A stretch of DNA of 34,862 bases from a virus: IMG/VR virus record IMGVR_UViG_3300020183_000249, positions 1-34,862 of that record; one strand, 5' to 3'. Positions 1-34,862 of this stretch are shown here, in pieces. A program made the translations under genes and the position numbers. The stretch's first letter is position 1. Each line of letters starts with the position of its first letter. Under the pieces are notes generated by a model. It saw nothing but the letters and a program-made list of their open reading frames with translations. It made no database searches and was not told the DNA's origin.

Positions 1-1266
1 TATTGTGTACCAACCTCCACCTCTACTAAATACATCATATCCAAGTCTTGCACTCATCGCTTCTATTTCACTTCTGCTATACATTTTATCTGTTGTTACA
101 AAGTATTTGCAGAACTCCCTTGATGTAACTAAATCTGAATCATTAAACCCCTGCCTCCACTCGTATGAATACCTGATCAGAAATTCAGTTGTTTTCGGCT
201 TCATTGATTCAACGATCTCTGAAATTGGTGCAGTCAATTTACGTTCAATGATTATTGATTTATCATCTCCTTTACCAATAGATGTTTCAGTTGACTTCAA
301 ATATCCTTTTTCTTCAAGTATTCCGATCACACGTTTAACCGCACCCACATCTTCCTTTAAAACCTCTGCAATAACTTCAGGTGTAATCCTTTTATCTTTA
401 GTAATCAGATCAAGTATATTTGACTGCAACTGTGTTACATCTTCAAACAGTTGTGTTTCCTGAAAGTATGCACGTTTTTTAAACACGTTAAAGTTATTTC
501 TACTTTCCCCAAATTCATCTAATGATTTAAAATCAAAGTGTGCAGACAATGCAACCTTTTCACATTCAGGTACAGGCTGCTGATATTTATTTATATCAAT
601 ACCTGCTTTTTCAAGTAACCATTCTTTAGGTGCTATTTGCAGAAGTGCTGCTTCTGTTAATTCCATTCCGATTGGTTCGGTAGGAATAATCTTTAAATCT
701 TCCGCATAACCTGCATATCCTGCCAACATATTGAATGTTGATTCAAGGAACATTTGTTTTGCGTTTACATAAGTATTCTTGAAAATCTCATACCCATCAC
801 GCATCTCTGTTCTGCTTCCAAGTTTACCTGCTTCAGCAATACCGAATATGCTCGGTGTTGTGATCATGTGTCCGCTGAAAATATTGGTCTGTATTAAACT
901 GTCAACCCTTCCAAAGTCCTCTTTTGTCAAATCAGATTGACCAAGATCATCAATGATTGGCTTACGTGAAGCATCATTAACGAATGCCAACATATATTTT
1001 ATGCCATCAGCACCTGTATATGTATTTTTAAATTTACGATGAATTACACTTTGCTCATCAGGTGAAGGTTCACCATTAGGAAGTGTGATAAGTTTACTTG
1101 CAGAAAACCCTGTTTTGGCATTACCAAGAACGTGCTTTGAAACCTCGATATCAGATTCAATATAGTTTAATGCACCAAAATACGAAGGCAAAGCATATAC
1201 CTGCGACAAAGGTCTGTACTCCTTCATGTAAAGTATTTGTTTTCCCTGTGGGTTTTTAGGGTTAAA
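1..1266. repeat. Left terminal homology (matches 33460-34862)
   Basis: Bases 1-1266 align to the right end of the window with only scattered substitutions, except for one replaced block: 545-665 here against about 34005-34262 there, a net 138-base difference. The ends therefore carry two alleles of the same portal segment. It probably marks contig closure of a circular or permuted genome, not a true long terminal repeat, because the copies differ. Confidence 0.8.
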
Positions 1267-4942: not shown

Positions 4943-6439
4943 TTAACCAAATTTAGCTTTTTGTTTAATTGCTTCAATTCTTTTCTGACTTGCACTTATA
5001 TCTGTTTCAACAACGTATGCCCTGATTGCCTGATTTCCGATTGCGTTAATTGATGCCTGATCAATTCTTGTTGTTGCAATATTTGATGTTGGACTTATTG
5101 GTGAAGTCGTACTTATTCCTGAAGGTATAGAAGCAGATGCACCACTTCTACTTGGAATAGGTGTTTTAGCAATATTTTTTACTGCACTTAATCCCGATGC
5201 AAGTATCGTTGCAACTGATGCAACTTTCTGTATTGTTCCGAAGGGTTCAGGTATTGTTGTTTTATTTGCAAGTACCTCCGTAACACCTGTATATGTATTG
5301 ATAATTGCCTGTGCTAAACTTAATGCTTTACCTGCTGCCGTATTTTTACCAACTAATTCAGACAACTCACCAAGTGCTATGCCTGTCATATAATAGGCAT
5401 TCTGTTTTGCCTGTTCACGTGCAATAGTATCTTCAGCTAATTTTTTTTGATCATCATTTTGTTTGATAATATTTGCACTTCTTGTTTTTTGTAATTGATC
5501 TTGTCTTTGTTCTTCTTGCTGAAATAAACCTTCGACAGTTTCATCTTCTTCTTTTGCTATACGTTTAGCTTCCTGACTTCTGTTTTCAAGTGATTGCATT
5601 TCAAGCCTGAATGCTGCTCTTTGTGCTCCAAGTTCATCTTCACGATATTTTTGTAATCTTGCAGCTTCCTCTTTCTTTTCCTGATCTATTTTTCTTTTTC
5701 TTTCTTCTGCTGCTCTTTGTCTTTCTGCTTCAAGTTTTTTATTCTTTTCTACTTCATCATCAACTACTTTTTTATTTGTTTTTTCTACCTTTTTAACTTC
5801 CTCATCTTTGAACCCAAGAAACTTTGCTGCTTTGTCTATAATGTTACCAAGAAAATCACCAACAGGTTTCAATGCAGGTATCAGTCTATAAAGTGCTTCC
5901 TTTAATTTATCAAAGTTTTGTATAATCAAAGGAATTGCAATAGCCAATAAACCTATTCCTGTTGCAGCAATAGCACCACGAAGTGTACTAAATGCAGTAA
6001 CAACCTGTGTCTTAATAACTGCTGCAAGTCTTTGAAAATCTTTGACAGAATCTGTTATTGTTGATAACCCTTGTGATAATGCGAGTGCTGATTGTACACG
6101 TAACAATTGTTTTTCTACTTCCTTCGATTCAACACCAAATAAACCTATTGCACCTTGCACCGCAGTAAATCCACCTGCAACTGCGGTTAATGCACCACTT
6201 AATGCTTGAAACTTTTTACCGGGATCAAATAAATTTGCAGTTTCACTTGCTTCTTGTATAGCATCTTTGAATAACGCTACCTTTTTAGCTGCTGCAACTG
6301 CTTCCTTACTATATTCTCCAAATGTAGTTTGTGCTGCAATTAATTCTGCATTTGCTTCTTTTAAGGCTTTCTTTACTTCACCTAAATTTTTAAATGCATT
6401 ACCGCCAATATTTATCTGTAAATTTAATGTTTCTGCCAT
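4943..6439 (-). CDS. Tail tape measure protein
   Basis: At 498 residues this protein should set tail length and is ejected with DNA. It has the expected layout: an Ala-rich helical N terminus (KALKEANAELIAAQTTFGEY), hydrophobic helices near residues 85-100 and 155-175 (GIGLLAIAIPLIIQNF), a long charged coiled coil at about 230-345 (ERQRAAEERKRKIDQEKKEE), another hydrophobic Ala-rich stretch, and a low-complexity Ser/Ile/Pro-rich tail. The length implies a short siphovirus tail, very roughly 70-75 nm at 0.15 nm per residue. Its start overlaps the stop of the preceding 674-residue tail gene by one base. Confidence 0.85.
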   Translation of the reverse strand: MAETLNLQINIGGNAFKNLGEVKKALKEANAELIAAQTTFGEYSKEAVAAAKKVALFKDAIQEASETANLFDPGKKFQALSGALTAVAGGFTAVQGAIGLFGVESKEVEKQLLRVQSALALSQGLSTITDSVKDFQRLAAVIKTQVVTAFSTLRGAIAATGIGLLAIAIPLIIQNFDKLKEALYRLIPALKPVGDFLGNIIDKAAKFLGFKDEEVKKVEKTNKKVVDDEVEKNKKLEAERQRAAEERKRKIDQEKKEEAARLQKYREDELGAQRAAFRLEMQSLENRSQEAKRIAKEEDETVEGLFQQEEQRQDQLQKTRSANIIKQNDDQKKLAEDTIAREQAKQNAYYMTGIALGELSELVGKNTAAGKALSLAQAIINTYTGVTEVLANKTTIPEPFGTIQKVASVATILASGLSAVKNIAKTPIPSRSGASASIPSGISTTSPISPTSNIATTRIDQASINAIGNQAIRAYVVETDISASQKRIEAIKQKAKFG

Positions 6440-12505: not shown

Positions 12506-13651
12506 TTAAAGAAAATTGTACCTGCCTGATCCTGCTTTGAAAGTCATGTTGTGATAGGCAAGGGCAAGTGCCATTACGCAGTCATCGTGAAAGCCTGAAG
12601 GTGCAGAATATTTAACCCCTGATGCGGAATATTGGTACTGAAATATCTCTAACTCATTGACAATCAAACCATTAGGATAACCAATTCTACCTGTTTGTAT
12701 GGCAGTCTGCAACCCTGTCATCAGTTGCTGCTTTGAATTTTGGGTAAATTTTAATCCCTGAATCATCATCCCTGCCCTTTGCAAGTCCTCAAAGATCGGA
12801 TCACCAACCCCTGTAGAATCGATTATAATAGGCTTTTTAGGCAATTTAAGCACCTCCTGCTTCGTACTGTGCCAATCCCTTTGAAACCTATCGAAGTACG
12901 AAACAACCCCATCAGAATCAATTCCTATTATAACTGTCCAATCGTATGACTTCGCCAAGTCAATGCCAAAATACATTGGCTCTTTTGTGCTCATTGGTCG
13001 GATGCACTTTCTGATATGTTCTGTTCCGAATGGATTGGCTGCATTTTCCATAGGGTTTGCCATGTACTCCTGCTCGAATACTGCTGCTGGTAATTGGCTT
13101 TTGGCATCCTCTATTTCCGCAGGATCAATGTAGGGATTATCGTATGTTGTATATTTGAAACTTTGCCAGTCCTTTTCGCCTGACTTCATGTACAAGCTAT
13201 AAAAGTAATTCTTACCACGTGGTGTTGATAAGAACATCGCCCATCCTTTGTAATCAGTTAGGGTAGGTCTGATTGAATTTAACCACCCCTGTTCAAGGTT
13301 CGGAATGAAAGATGCTTCATCAATAATTACTCCGTTAAACTTTCTGCCTCGCAGGTTGTCTAATCGTTCCCCTGTAAAAAACTCAACCATTCCCCCATTC
13401 GGGAAATATATCTTTAAATCTTTTTTCGGATAAGGTAATGCTGATCCTAATTTTTCGTAAAACTGTTTTGCTAATTTGTAGGTAGGTGTTATGTATGCAA
13501 TCTGTTGACCTTGAATTGCGGACTTTACTAACTTAATCTGACATAACTCTGACTTGCCAAATCTTCGCCCACACATAACAACGATAAACCTTGATTCAGA
13601 ATTAAGGATAGGCTTTTGGTTGATATGTGCAGCACTAAACTCAATTCTCAT
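12506..13651 (-). CDS. terL: Terminase large subunit
   Basis: This 381-residue enzyme pumps DNA into the prohead and cuts it. The ATPase has a Walker A-like CGRRFGKSE (residues 27-35) and Walker B VIIDEAS with D111 and E112; LSTPRGKNYFYSL follows as the coupling motif. The nuclease has acidic residues at D231 (YFGIDLAKSYDW), D278 (IIIDSTGVGD) and D355-D356 (GFHDDCVMALALA). It is a little short for the family but all motifs are present. It overlaps the small subunit by ATGA. Confidence 0.95.
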   Translation of the reverse strand: MRIEFSAAHINQKPILNSESRFIVVMCGRRFGKSELCQIKLVKSAIQGQQIAYITPTYKLAKQFYEKLGSALPYPKKDLKIYFPNGGMVEFFTGERLDNLRGRKFNGVIIDEASFIPNLEQGWLNSIRPTLTDYKGWAMFLSTPRGKNYFYSLYMKSGEKDWQSFKYTTYDNPYIDPAEIEDAKSQLPAAVFEQEYMANPMENAANPFGTEHIRKCIRPMSTKEPMYFGIDLAKSYDWTVIIGIDSDGVVSYFDRFQRDWHSTKQEVLKLPKKPIIIDSTGVGDPIFEDLQRAGMMIQGLKFTQNSKQQLMTGLQTAIQTGRIGYPNGLIVNELEIFQYQYSASGVKYSAPSGFHDDCVMALALAYHNMTFKAGSGRYNFL

Positions 13652-21210: not shown

Positions 21211-21882
21211 TTACATTAAAGTTTTGAAATATTCAGCAACTGCCATTCTGCGACAATTTAATTCCATCTGTTCATCATCTTCAAGAATCTCTTTCATTTG
21301 CTTTTTCTCCTGATGATCCGCATATCTGAACTTTTGTTTTATAGCTTCTTCTGTTCTTTGCAGAGTGCCTTCGAAGTCATAAACCAATCCACGTTTATGA
21401 ATAATTTTAAAGCACCGCAATCCCATAAAAATATGTTCCCAATCTTTATTTCGTTTGTAGATTTCAAATGAATCTTTCAGAATTTCATCTTCATCAACTT
21501 CGGTGGGTGCGATCTGTTTAGTTTCAGGTATGTATTCAGGTTGATAGTTTGCACGTGCCCATCTTGCATACGATCCAAGCATCCTTGTCAGATAAAGGAC
21601 TGAAAAGTTTTGAAATGTTTCTGATACTTCATCCAATTTGTTTTTAGCACATAGTTCAAATGCAAGATTAAATTCACCGATTGGTAGATTAGGATAATCA
21701 GCTTTCATCATCGTTGACATATAACTTAATTCAAAATCAGATGGAATACGATCACCCTTCACACCAAGTAAAACCAATCCTTTACCTATTATTTTCAATA
21801 TATCCTGTGAATCCGAATCCATCATTTTTGGACTGTTCTTCGCTTTTAAGAGCAGCTGCGACTCTGCTGAATGTTTCTTCAT
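21211..21882 (-). CDS. Possible helicase loader or replication protein
   Basis: This 223-residue frame overlaps the initiator gene by 101 bases; an alternative start is the Met pair at about 21825-21822. No clear ATPase motif is present. The sequence is helical (FNLAFELCAKNKLDEVSETF, NFSVLYLTRMLGSYARWARA) and charged at the end. By analogy with lambda O-P, a gene after the initiator often loads DnaB; the role is position-based inference. Confidence 0.6.
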   Translation of the reverse strand: MKKHSAESQLLLKAKNSPKMMDSDSQDILKIIGKGLVLLGVKGDRIPSDFELSYMSTMMKADYPNLPIGEFNLAFELCAKNKLDEVSETFQNFSVLYLTRMLGSYARWARANYQPEYIPETKQIAPTEVDEDEILKDSFEIYKRNKDWEHIFMGLRCFKIIHKRGLVYDFEGTLQRTEEAIKQKFRYADHQEKKQMKEILEDDEQMELNCRRMAVAEYFKTLM

Positions 21883-22528
21883 ACATTTCTATTTTAGTTG
21901 GTTTTTTAAAGTTATTGTTAAAGTTCGAATTATTTATCCAAACCGCTAACATTTTTTGTTTCCAATTTTTTACAGGTTTACCTTTTGAATCATGCCAATC
22001 GGCAACCTCGTAATAATCAAATGCCTGTTTGGCTTTCTGTATTGTACTGCCTTTCTCTAAAAAATAATCTTCAACTTCTGAAAGTGTTGGCTTTTGTATT
22101 CTATTAGTCTTTTGTATAATATTAGTCTTTTGTAATACATTAGTCTTTAGTATAGGATCACTTTCACCGAACTCGGTAAAACCCGAACTCGGTAAATCCC
22201 GAACTCGGTTATTTTCCATTTCGGCAGGTATATCATAAACAACATGATTCCAACCTATAAACCTACCTGTTTTCGGATCGTGTACCTTTACACTCAAAAT
22301 GTAACCATTCTTTTGCAGGTTTCTGAATGCCTTATCTATTGAGCCTTTTTTGTCGGGTAAACTATTGTATAAATTCTGCTTATAAATAACCCAATCAGAA
22401 GGTAAACTTAAAAGAAAAGTTAACAATCCTTTCTCATCCAAACTTAATTCCCTGCACTTGATCACATCGTTTGGCAGGGTAGTAAACCTTTCTGTTGTCC
22501 TGCTTTTAATTATCTGTCCTGTATTCAT
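21782..22528 (-). CDS. Winged-helix replication initiator (lambda O / DnaD-like) carrying a candidate origin
   Basis: This 248-residue protein has a helix-turn-helix start (RFTTLPNDVIKCRELSLDEK GLLTFLLSLP SDWVIYKQNL) like phage replication proteins. Residues 105-140 are the linker, containing KTN-IIQ repeats encoded by tandem 18-bp repeats. The C terminus contains EDYFLEKGSTIQKAKQAFDY YEVADWHDSK GKPVKNWKQK, a DnaD-like ending. Like lambda O, its own gene appears to hold the origin. It follows a hairpin leader. Confidence 0.75.
   Translation of the reverse strand: MNTGQIIKSRTTERFTTLPNDVIKCRELSLDEKGLLTFLLSLPSDWVIYKQNLYNSLPDKKGSIDKAFRNLQKNGYILSVKVHDPKTGRFIGWNHVVYDIPAEMENNRVRDLPSSGFTEFGESDPILKTNVLQKTNIIQKTNRIQKPTLSEVEDYFLEKGSTIQKAKQAFDYYEVADWHDSKGKPVKNWKQKMLAVWINNSNFNNNFKKPTKIEMYEETFSRVAAALKSEEQSKNDGFGFTGYIENNR
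22086..22157. repeat. Four tandem 18-bp repeats (candidate origin)
   Basis: Units begin at 22086, 22104, 22122 and 22140, with TTAGTCTTTTGTATAATA as the clearest; the first and last are diverged. The period is a multiple of three, so they encode the six-residue repeat KTN(V/I/R)(L/I)Q. The A+T-rich content makes them candidates for duplex unwinding or initiator binding. Confidence 0.75.
22167..22211. repeat. Three 16-bp iterons with palindromic core (candidate origin)
   Basis: CCGAACTCGGTAAA starts at 22167 and 22183, and CCGAACTCGGTTA at 22199, an exact 16-bp period. Each core CCGA-AC-TCGG is an inverted repeat. Sixteen is not a multiple of three, so the three copies encode different residues; selection must act on the DNA itself. 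Confidence 0.8.
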
Positions 22529-22532
22529 AAAT

Positions 22533-22578
22533 AAAAAACCCTAACGGGATTGGAAGTGGCTTTTCCGCACCCATTAGG
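22533..22578 (-). terminator. Hairpin terminator or attenuator before the initiator gene
   Basis: On the minus strand CCTAATGGG (22578-22570) pairs with CCCGTTAGG (22548-22540), with an inner GGAA/TTCC stem, and TTTTTT follows at 22538-22533. It sits only a few bases before the ATG at 22528. It can end the transcript of the DnaA-like gene, or act as attenuator of the initiator transcript. Confidence 0.75.
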
Positions 22579-22622
22579 ATCATTAATGTTTTTAATAAAT
22601 GATGAAGCCACCACCATTTTCA

Positions 22623-22630
22623 CAAAGATA
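22623..22630 (-). promoter_or_regulatory. -7 promoter box before the leader hairpin
   Basis: The minus strand reads TATCTTTG, matching TAnnTTTG, next to the stop of the DnaA-like gene. A start here would make a leader of about 90 bases ending in the hairpin at 22533-22578. No good -33 TTTG is found. Confidence 0.4.
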
Positions 22631-23065
22631 CTAAATAACCTGCAATTTTGATTCGATTAATATTTTAGCCTGATTGTATTTTTCAGCAAAATCCTCATCT
22701 GTATCAATTAAATTTTTACAGGTTCTGATCGAATGTAGGATTGTTGTATGATGACCATTTGATGCCATCGTTTCGCCTATCTCTTTCAGAGTTAAATCTG
22801 TGTACTGCCTAAGCATATAAATCGCACAATGCCTTGCATCTACTACCCTTCGCCTTCGTGTATATTCCATGCAGTCAGTATTAAATACTTCATTAACTGC
22901 AAAGATTATTTCTTCAGCAGGTCTGCGTTTGTGCCTTGATACTCTTTCAATAACAGGAAACTGATCCAATAGCTTTTCAAGTTTACCAATCATTTCGTAG
23001 TGATCCTTGATGATAGATTGGATAAAATTTCTCGTAAGTGCTTTAGTTGGTTCGGTCTGTTTCAA
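22631..23065 (-). CDS. DnaA domain IV-like DNA-binding protein
   Basis: This 144-residue protein matches the DnaA C-terminal DNA-binding domain: RRRVVDARHCAIYMLRQYTD LTLKEIGETM (residues 70-100) and the signature GHHTTILHSIRTCKNL (104-119), equivalent to the DnaA box-contacting loop. There is no AAA+ ATPase. It may bind DnaA boxes to recruit or displace host DnaA, or act as a regulator. It lies just before the initiator gene. Confidence 0.85.
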   Translation of the reverse strand: MKQTEPTKALTRNFIQSIIKDHYEMIGKLEKLLDQFPVIERVSRHKRRPAEEIIFAVNEVFNTDCMEYTRRRRVVDARHCAIYMLRQYTDLTLKEIGETMASNGHHTTILHSIRTCKNLIDTDEDFAEKYNQAKILIESKLQVI

Positions 23066-33390: not shown

Positions 33391-34862
33391 TTATTTTCTT
33401 GTTACTACGTTAGCTTTCCATTGATGTCTGCAAAAATGTCTGTGCTTATTTGTATTTGGTATTGTGTACCAACCTCCACCTCTACTAAATACATCATATC
33501 CAAGTCTTGCACTCATCGCTTCTATTTCACTTCTGCTATACATTTTATCTGTTGTTACAAAGTATTTGCAGAACTCCCTTGATGTACCTAAATCTGAAAC
33601 ATCAAACCCCTGCCTCCACTCGTATGAATACCTTATCAGAAATTCAGTTGTTTTCGGCTTCATTGATTCAACGATTTCTGAAATTGGTGCAGTCAATTTA
33701 CGTTCAATGATTATTGATTTATCATCTCCTTTACCAATAGATGTTTCAGTTGATTTTAAATATCCTTTTTCTTCAAGTATTCCGATGACACGCTTTACCG
33801 CACCCACATCTTCCTTTAATACTTCTGCAATAACTTCAGGTGTAATCCTTTTATCTTTAGTAATCAGATCAAGTATATTTGATTGCAACTGTGTTACATC
33901 TTCGAACAATTGTGTTTCCTGAAAGTATGCACGTTGTTTATATACGTTAAAGTTATTTCTACTTTCCCCGAATTCATCCAATAATTTAAAATCAAAGTGT
34001 GCAGAAAATCCTTGTCTCTGTTCAACTGTTGGCTCTAAATCTTCACCACCTTCTTTTGGTTGTAAGCTGATCAATGACCTCAATTCATTAGGTGTCAATT
34101 GTTCAAGCACCTTATTTGCAACCAATGGACTCAAAGAATTGATCGCATCAATTACATCTTGATTTGTTGTTGTCTGTCTTACTTCAATAGGTTTCAAACC
34201 GATTTTTTCACGCATCTCATCCTTATCCATAATCTGCAACAATGCAGTTTCTGTAAATTCCATACCGATTGGTTCGGTAGGTATGATCTGTAAATCTTCC
34301 GCATAACCTGCAAATCCTGCCAACATATTGAATGTTGATTCAAGGAACATTTGTTTTGCGTTTACATAAGTATTCTTGAAAATCTCATACCCATCACGCA
34401 TCTCTGTTCTGCTTCCAAGTTCACCTGCTTCAGCAATACCGAATATGCTCGGTGTTGTGATCATGTGTCCGCTAAAAATATTGGTCTGTATCAAACTGTC
34501 AACCCTTCCAAAATCTTCTTTTGTAAGATCAGATTGACCAAGATCATCAATGATTGGCTTACGTGAAGCATCATTAACGAATGCCAACATATATTTGATT
34601 CCGTCAGCACCTGTATATGTATTTTTAAACTTACGATGAATTACACTTTGCTCATCAGGTGAAGGCTCACCATTAGGAAGCGTGATAAGTTTACTTGCAG
34701 AAAAACCTGTTTTAGCATTACCAAGAACGTGTTTTGAAACCTCAATATCAGATTCAATATAGTTTAATGCACCGAAATATGAAGGCAAAGCATACACCTG
34801 CGACAAAGGTCTGTACTCCTTCATGTAAAGTATTTGTTTTCCCTGTGGGTTTTAGGATTAAA
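33391..34862 (-). CDS. Portal protein, right copy (5' end cut by window)
   Basis: This is the second allele of the portal gene and contains its true end. From MKEYRPLSQVYALPSYFGAL (34824) it has 477 residues. It differs from the left copy by an additional helical segment ending LTPNELRSLISLQPKEGG, followed by the winged-helix and F-like parts. It ends PNTNKHRHFCRHQWKANVVT RK, with the CRHxW motif I associate with Mu F/SPP1 gp7-like head proteins. Upstream of 34824, one T fewer than in the left copy in a T-run near 34850-34853 shifts the frame and makes a stop; an end-of-contig error is likely. Confidence 0.85.
33460..34862. repeat. Right terminal homology (matches 1-1266)
   Basis: The sequence starting TATTGTGTACC is the same as at base 1. 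Scattered substitutions, the replaced block at about 34005-34262 and one indel near 34850 separate the copies. The adjoining sequence 33391-33459 would complete the 3' end of the left portal copy if the genome is circular. Confidence 0.8.

Follow-up and report, generated by a model that had tools for sequence, protein, structure and literature searches.

Does the gene of a phage replication initiator also hold, within its own coding sequence, the origin at which its product acts? The question is raised by the window, the whole 34,862-bp stretch of an IMG/VR virus record analysed here, in which two arrays of tandem repeats both lie inside a minus-strand gene for a replication initiator, or replisome organiser (21782-22528, 248 codons).

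Repeat arrays and the initiator that encloses them

The two arrays have the highest Tandem Repeats Finder scores of the whole window, 91 for the 18-bp period (22091-22153) and 79 for the 16-bp period (22167-22209), the third-ranked score being 52. The 16-bp array contains three CCGAACTCGG dyads, kept as CCGANNTCGG among homologues (iteron 1, 22199-22208; iteron 2, 22183-22192; iteron 3, 22167-22176), together with a degenerate fourth repeat in the same 16-bp register (22215-22224), which retains the CCGA half-site, invariant in close relatives (columns 17-20 of alignment A5), and in which the other half has decayed. Exact CCGANNTCGG occurs three times in the 34,862 bp, always within the linker DNA of the initiator gene, where 0.04 copies would be expected, and none of 100 shuffles reached three copies. 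The neighbouring A+T-rich block (22091-22162) is built of 3.5-4 copies of an 18-bp tandem repeat, TACAAAAGACTAAT... on the minus strand; with 79% A+T it belongs to the top 2% of 63-bp windows and is a probable DNA unwinding element. Read along the minus strand of the gene, the order is degenerate repeat (22224-22215), three CCGAGTTCGG dyads with a period of 16 bp (22208-22167) and A+T-rich 18-mers (22162-22091).

The first-pass annotation had described four tandem A+T-rich 18-bp repeats beside three 16-bp repeats with CCGA-AC-TCGG cores, and had argued that the broken codon frame excludes a protein explanation. The A+T-rich array is real, but it comprises three good copies and one decayed (22145-22162); the three cores are present in the window, whereas the core of the relatives is CCGA-NN-TCGG and a degenerate fourth copy stands in register. 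The argument from the frame is sound for the 16-bp array only, since 18 bp is a multiple of three: the 18-mers lie in frame and encode QKTNxI, so that a protein constraint on them is possible, and the case for a DNA-level constraint there rests on codon bias.

The product of the gene is divided into a winged-helix N-domain (residues 1-104), a disordered linker (105-141) and a helical C-domain (147-200), and matches the profiles phrog_4707 (replication initiation, 2e-14) and phrog_186 (DnaD-like loader, 3e-7). The sole match in a Pfam scan was a weak one to HTH_36 (PF13730), with 17.2 bits against a curated cut-off of 25, a cut-off that the relatives L169 and L216, in which the N-domain is swapped, exceed with 49 bits; neither the lambda O family model nor the RepA_N model was matched, and the C-domain was without any Pfam match. 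In the AlphaFold2 model, calculated with 24 homologues (mean pLDDT 67), residues 105-141 fall below a pLDDT of 50, and the DNA for this predicted disordered stretch contains the dyads along with the greater part of the A+T-rich array. The primosomal protein DnaB, the N-domain of the pSK41-type Rep, RctB domain 1 and the DnaD N-domain rank high when a structural aligner is applied to the N-domain model, with Z scores of 6.6-9.5, which are moderate and do not by themselves prove function. By VIA-align the same model (mean pLDDT 67) gave a Z of 8.4 over 87 residues to 4pql and of 7.8 to 4pt7, both presumably pSK41-type Rep proteins, judging by the entry titles. A Foldseek search with the initiator model was less informative than the aligner and returned nothing below an E value of 0.001, a sequence search of solved structures returned no meaningful relative, and a scan of genome contigs recovered only six distant relatives, in Anaerococcus, Cytophagaceae and Campylobacter records. 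TACTAAT-like A+T-rich runs are present in the two Cytophagaceae relatives and in that from Anaerococcus, all three with indistinct dyads.

Conservation and exchange of the array

Comparison with homologous genes shows that selection acts on the 16-bp dyad array at the level of its DNA. Across 60 distinct homologues that share the N-domain of the window, exact CCGANNTCGG was counted 131 times, against a mean of 3.6 and a maximum of 10 after synonymous shuffling, in which codons were permuted within each gene; the set holds some close kin, and these counts are therefore non-independent events. The sites are distributed over the codon phases as 20, 54 and 57, and the presence of CCGANNTCGG in all three excludes a single protein motif as the explanation: the array specifies different peptides in the three frames, and its bases are nonetheless retained. 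The CCGA and TCGG halves are kept among the 60 homologues in every codon phase, the central NN takes 12 dinucleotide forms, and the spacing of the dyads is almost always 16 bp, the exceptions being a single 15-bp step and some intervals of double length (32-33 bp). When the relatives were aligned, a check proposed in the first-pass annotation, exact CCGANNTCGG was found in 57 of the 60 linkers amid varying neighbouring codons, so that retention of the protein with loss of the repeats was not the pattern observed. The A+T-rich 18-mers also carry a signature at the level of DNA, with 28 occurrences of TACAAAAGACTAAT in the 60 genes as opposed to 1.1 after synonymous shuffling, and with AAT making up 96% of the Asn codons within the A+T-rich repeat stretch and 57% elsewhere.

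The dyads follow the N-domain. The 57 carriers of exact CCGANNTCGG among the 60 genes with the N-domain of the window compare with none among 49 genes with other N-domains, and the diverged homologues L056 and L057 are among those without it. Conversely, the dyads are retained where this N-domain is joined to another C-domain (L023, L030 and, with a single mismatch in each site, L058). The same dependence emerged when protein sequence was left aside: when 2.9 million viral contigs were searched for the spaced triple dyad as DNA alone, 32 stretches were recovered, and all 32 lie directly behind DNA encoding an N-domain of the window type, at identities as low as 32%. In L057, the array is CCGT..ACGG-like, not CCGA..TCGG, a difference that may help to locate the residues with which the N-domain reads bases.

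The C-domain family, for its part, is joined to many N-domains, including DUF1376, Lin1244_N, DUF6291 and full HTH_36, and close relatives reveal where the exchanges take place. In L003 and L039, an identity of about 96% extends as far as the start codon at base 5004, is lost altogether in the stretch that follows, and resumes at base 5434 (codon 145), where the C-domain begins; near-identical borders, at 85-94% identity, are found in the pairs L012/L068, L003/L048, L003/L046 and L008/L064, and in L046 the exchanged segment also brings extra DNA upstream of the swapped gene. Such borders among close relatives indicate that N-domain, iterons and A+T-rich block move as one cassette, and the comparison shows that the unit of inheritance, reaching from the start codon to the end of the linker, comprises the winged-helix N-domain together with the CCGANNTCGG array and the A+T-rich repeats. 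Near-identical phages that differ only in this cassette of reader and site, bounded by the start codon on one side and the linker end on the other, amount to an almost experiment-like natural test of the coevolution of initiator and origin.

Other cassettes on this C-domain family appear to carry other sites. Three or more copies of CATATG are present in 10 of 11 genes with a DUF1376-like N-domain, while none of the 60 genes with the N-domain of the window has two or more, and the comparison predicts that CATATG is the iteron of the DUF1376-like initiators. Linker arrays of this hexamer, on the same C-domain family and with DUF1376-like N-domains, occur in L171-L176, L182, L183, L207, L211, L212 and L232; the steps are 12 bp in the L171 type and 11 bp in the L207 type, and one or two further CATATG are located near codon 50. 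In genes with other N-domains in general, the best periodic DNA repeat beats synonymous shuffles in 40 of 50 cases (p <= 0.05), the repeats of these 40 lying mostly in the linker and many being of low complexity. Iteron predictions that can be tested by binding assay are thereby provided for domain families without a known role, such as DUF1376, and it is suggested that the origins of many uncultured phages may be readable from the linker DNA of their initiators.

A probable origin nested in the linker-coding DNA

An array kept as DNA and inherited with the N-domain supports a lambda-like origin, and on sequence comparison and analogy the region is very probably the replication origin of the phage, placed within the linker-coding part of the initiator gene. 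Two traits of the nested-origin layout are present, tandem dyad iterons inside the initiator coding sequence and an adjoining A+T-rich segment as candidate site of unwinding. GC skew has no turning point at the repeat region, although all genes of the window are on one strand, and is uninformative as to where replication starts. An origin driven by DnaA boxes was considered and rejected, as the window contains three TTWTNCACA sequences where 8.6 are expected, none of them at the repeat region.

The best surviving alternative, though an improbable one, is that the dyads are operators through which the initiator would autoregulate by blocking transcription within its own gene, the origin lying elsewhere. 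The shape of the CCGANNTCGG dyad is equally typical of operators and many initiators autoregulate, but the dyads are situated about 300-370 nt past the start codon in every relative, never near a promoter, and there are no copies of CCGANNTCGG in 182 kb of DNA flanking the homologous genes; moreover, operators would leave no role for the A+T-rich tandem repeats that are swapped along with the dyads, and a separate leader already resembles expression control. Even less likely is a function of the array in plasmid-like partition or incompatibility, or in DNA packaging, instead of initiation: iteron-like arrays are known at such sites as well, but the one described here tracks a DNA-binding domain that belongs to a replication-initiator-like protein and does not accompany terminase or Par genes, and the large terminase gene, called from its translation alone, is about 9 kb away (12506-13651). 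Least credible is that the repeats merely reflect a repetitive protein linker or arose by neutral slippage, a reading in keeping with the in-frame 18-mers and the predicted disorder of the linker. It is contradicted for the 16-bp array, retained base for base in spite of the different peptides in three frames; the 18-mers, too, exceed synonymous shuffles.

For the nested origin, the anatomy of repeats and gene, together with the origins of lambda, SPP1 and pSK41, suggests a mechanism of which every step is extrapolated, from dimerisation and binding through opening to helicase loading and origin activity itself. N-domain dimers would occupy the 10-bp dyads, which follow one another every 16 bp, and the nucleoprotein complex so formed would strain and open the A+T-rich 18-mers next to them. 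Swaps of the N-domain leave the C-domain in place, and this second domain may then recruit or load the replicative helicase, possibly aided by the protein from the overlapping downstream gene; helicase loading by this domain is a guess, as the C-domain has no Pfam match. Nesting the site in the gene of its own reader would keep the specificity pair together during module exchange. The downstream gene (21211-21882, minus strand, 223 aa) matches phrog_26016, of unknown function, and is kept in relatives; by its position, its product is a candidate helicase-loading partner.

The first-pass annotation had noted that the iterons and the A+T-rich segment of lambda lie within gene O, in agreement with published accounts in which the initiator gene contains four dyad iterons and an A+T-rich block of 39 bp (PMC6022878, PMC7466680), and had proposed that this phage initiates in the same way. 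In lambda, a dimer of O occupies each iteron, its N-domain binding DNA and its C-domain the loader P (PMC6022878, PMC7466680). The proposal holds for the layout, with N-domain, dyad iterons, A+T-rich block and C-domain in one gene, but not for homology, as the lambda O family is not matched in Pfam; the lambda dyad measures 18-19 bp compared with a dyad of 10 bp and a period of 16 bp in the window. A comparable arrangement occurs in SPP1, where oriL in gene 38 combines direct repeats with an A+T-rich unwinding element inside the initiator gene (PMC6316719), the likeness being one of layout, not of sequence alignment; SPP1 also has a second origin, oriR, and none was seen in the window. The rep gene of the RepA_N plasmid pSK41 has Rep boxes in its middle, a winged-helix N-domain and a dispensable linker (PMC5703833). 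The window differs in belonging to a phage and not a plasmid, in the sequence of its boxes and in the absence of a RepA_N sequence match. In the pPR9 chimera, the N-domain and origin were exchanged in one block for a pfam13730 domain and its origin (PMC5703833), a published exchange of the same kind, so that the principle was already known; as far as checked, novelty lies in the class of iteron, in a period that runs out of frame and in the clean succession of swaps.

On sequence evidence, the nearest characterised relative found is Rep of the Lactococcus phage TP901-1, annotated as an experimentally studied replication protein, the N-domain of which is homologous to that of the window (32% identity, E 7e-12). 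Its linker DNA contains 15-bp direct repeats (TTTTCCAGATGTGGC) and then the A+T-rich TACTAAATACTAATATACAAAACACT, the same order of iterons and A+T-rich DNA as in the window, and the A+T-rich block itself is similar, with a run of TACTAAATACTAAT...ACAAAA.ACT. However, the iteron sequence differs, the period of 15 is in frame, and the C-domain is not alignable, the tblastn match spanning query residues 6-163 only; a literature search on the TP901-1 repeats found nothing usable. HTH-type initiators with differing iterons repeatedly have TACTAAT-like A+T-rich units in their linkers (L246-L250, L057 and TP901-1, listed as L244), and the occurrence of such runs in both Bacillota and Bacteroidota, among phages as well as prophages, hints at a widespread unwinding-element motif.

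The leader RNA and neighbouring features

The initiator gene is preceded by a leader (22529-22630, minus strand) with a putative promoter element, a hairpin H1, a terminator-like hairpin H2 and a T-run that stops immediately short of the start codon. The promoter-like TATCTTTG (22623-22630, minus strand) fits the Bacteroidota -7 element, the consensus of which is TAnnTTTG, and is positioned at about -96 to -128 from the ATG in most relatives. In the RNA fold, H1 (22597-22619, minus strand) exposes the loop GTGGCTT (22605-22611), exactly complementary over 7 nt to the apical loop AAGCCAC (22556-22562) of H2, whose stem and T-run cover 22533-22581 on the same strand. An H2 was detectable in 60 distinct leaders, and in 77% of these its loop is matched over 6 nt or more by sequence further upstream in the same leader, compared with 8% in controls that combined the loop of one locus with the leader of another, and 25 distinct matched loop pairs across lineages were compiled by hand. 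In an alignable subgroup of 12 leaders, all 300 of 300 cells are standard pairs, and of the seven pairs between the loops three vary on both sides, these two-sided changes tracking two main sequence groups. Within the window, H2 is the only terminator-like hairpin with such an upstream match, the others reaching at most 5 nt.

On these sequence patterns, the leader is read as an attenuator-like control of initiator expression, in which the contact could be formed within one RNA or between two. Rfam gave no family at the gathering score, only three meaningless sub-threshold matches near the leader, and the literature on kissing-loop attenuators in phages yielded nothing usable; the kissing-loop leader may be a further undescribed control RNA. 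More tentatively, and with the balance tilted against it, the locus could combine two self-specific layers, a set of exchangeable cassettes in which many unrelated N-domains, carried on one C-domain family, each come with an origin in their linker DNA, and a lineage-matched H1/H2 leader of an undescribed RNA family, the terminated form of which could act in trans in copy-number control or superinfection immunity. Phage P4 immunity RNA and ColE1 RNA I are comparable in idea to such a trans-acting leader.

The next gene upstream (22631-23065, minus strand) encodes a DNA-binding protein of 144 aa resembling DnaA domain IV (Pfam Bac_DnaA_C, 2e-12); this stand-alone gene is kept beside the initiator in close relatives, and the window is nonetheless poor in DnaA boxes. 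The two ends of the window (1-1266 and 33460-34862) are diverged copies of one gene region, with 95-96% identity and an internal difference of about 140 bp, which may represent an imperfect end redundancy, perhaps created when two strains were assembled together, or a duplication of the gene.
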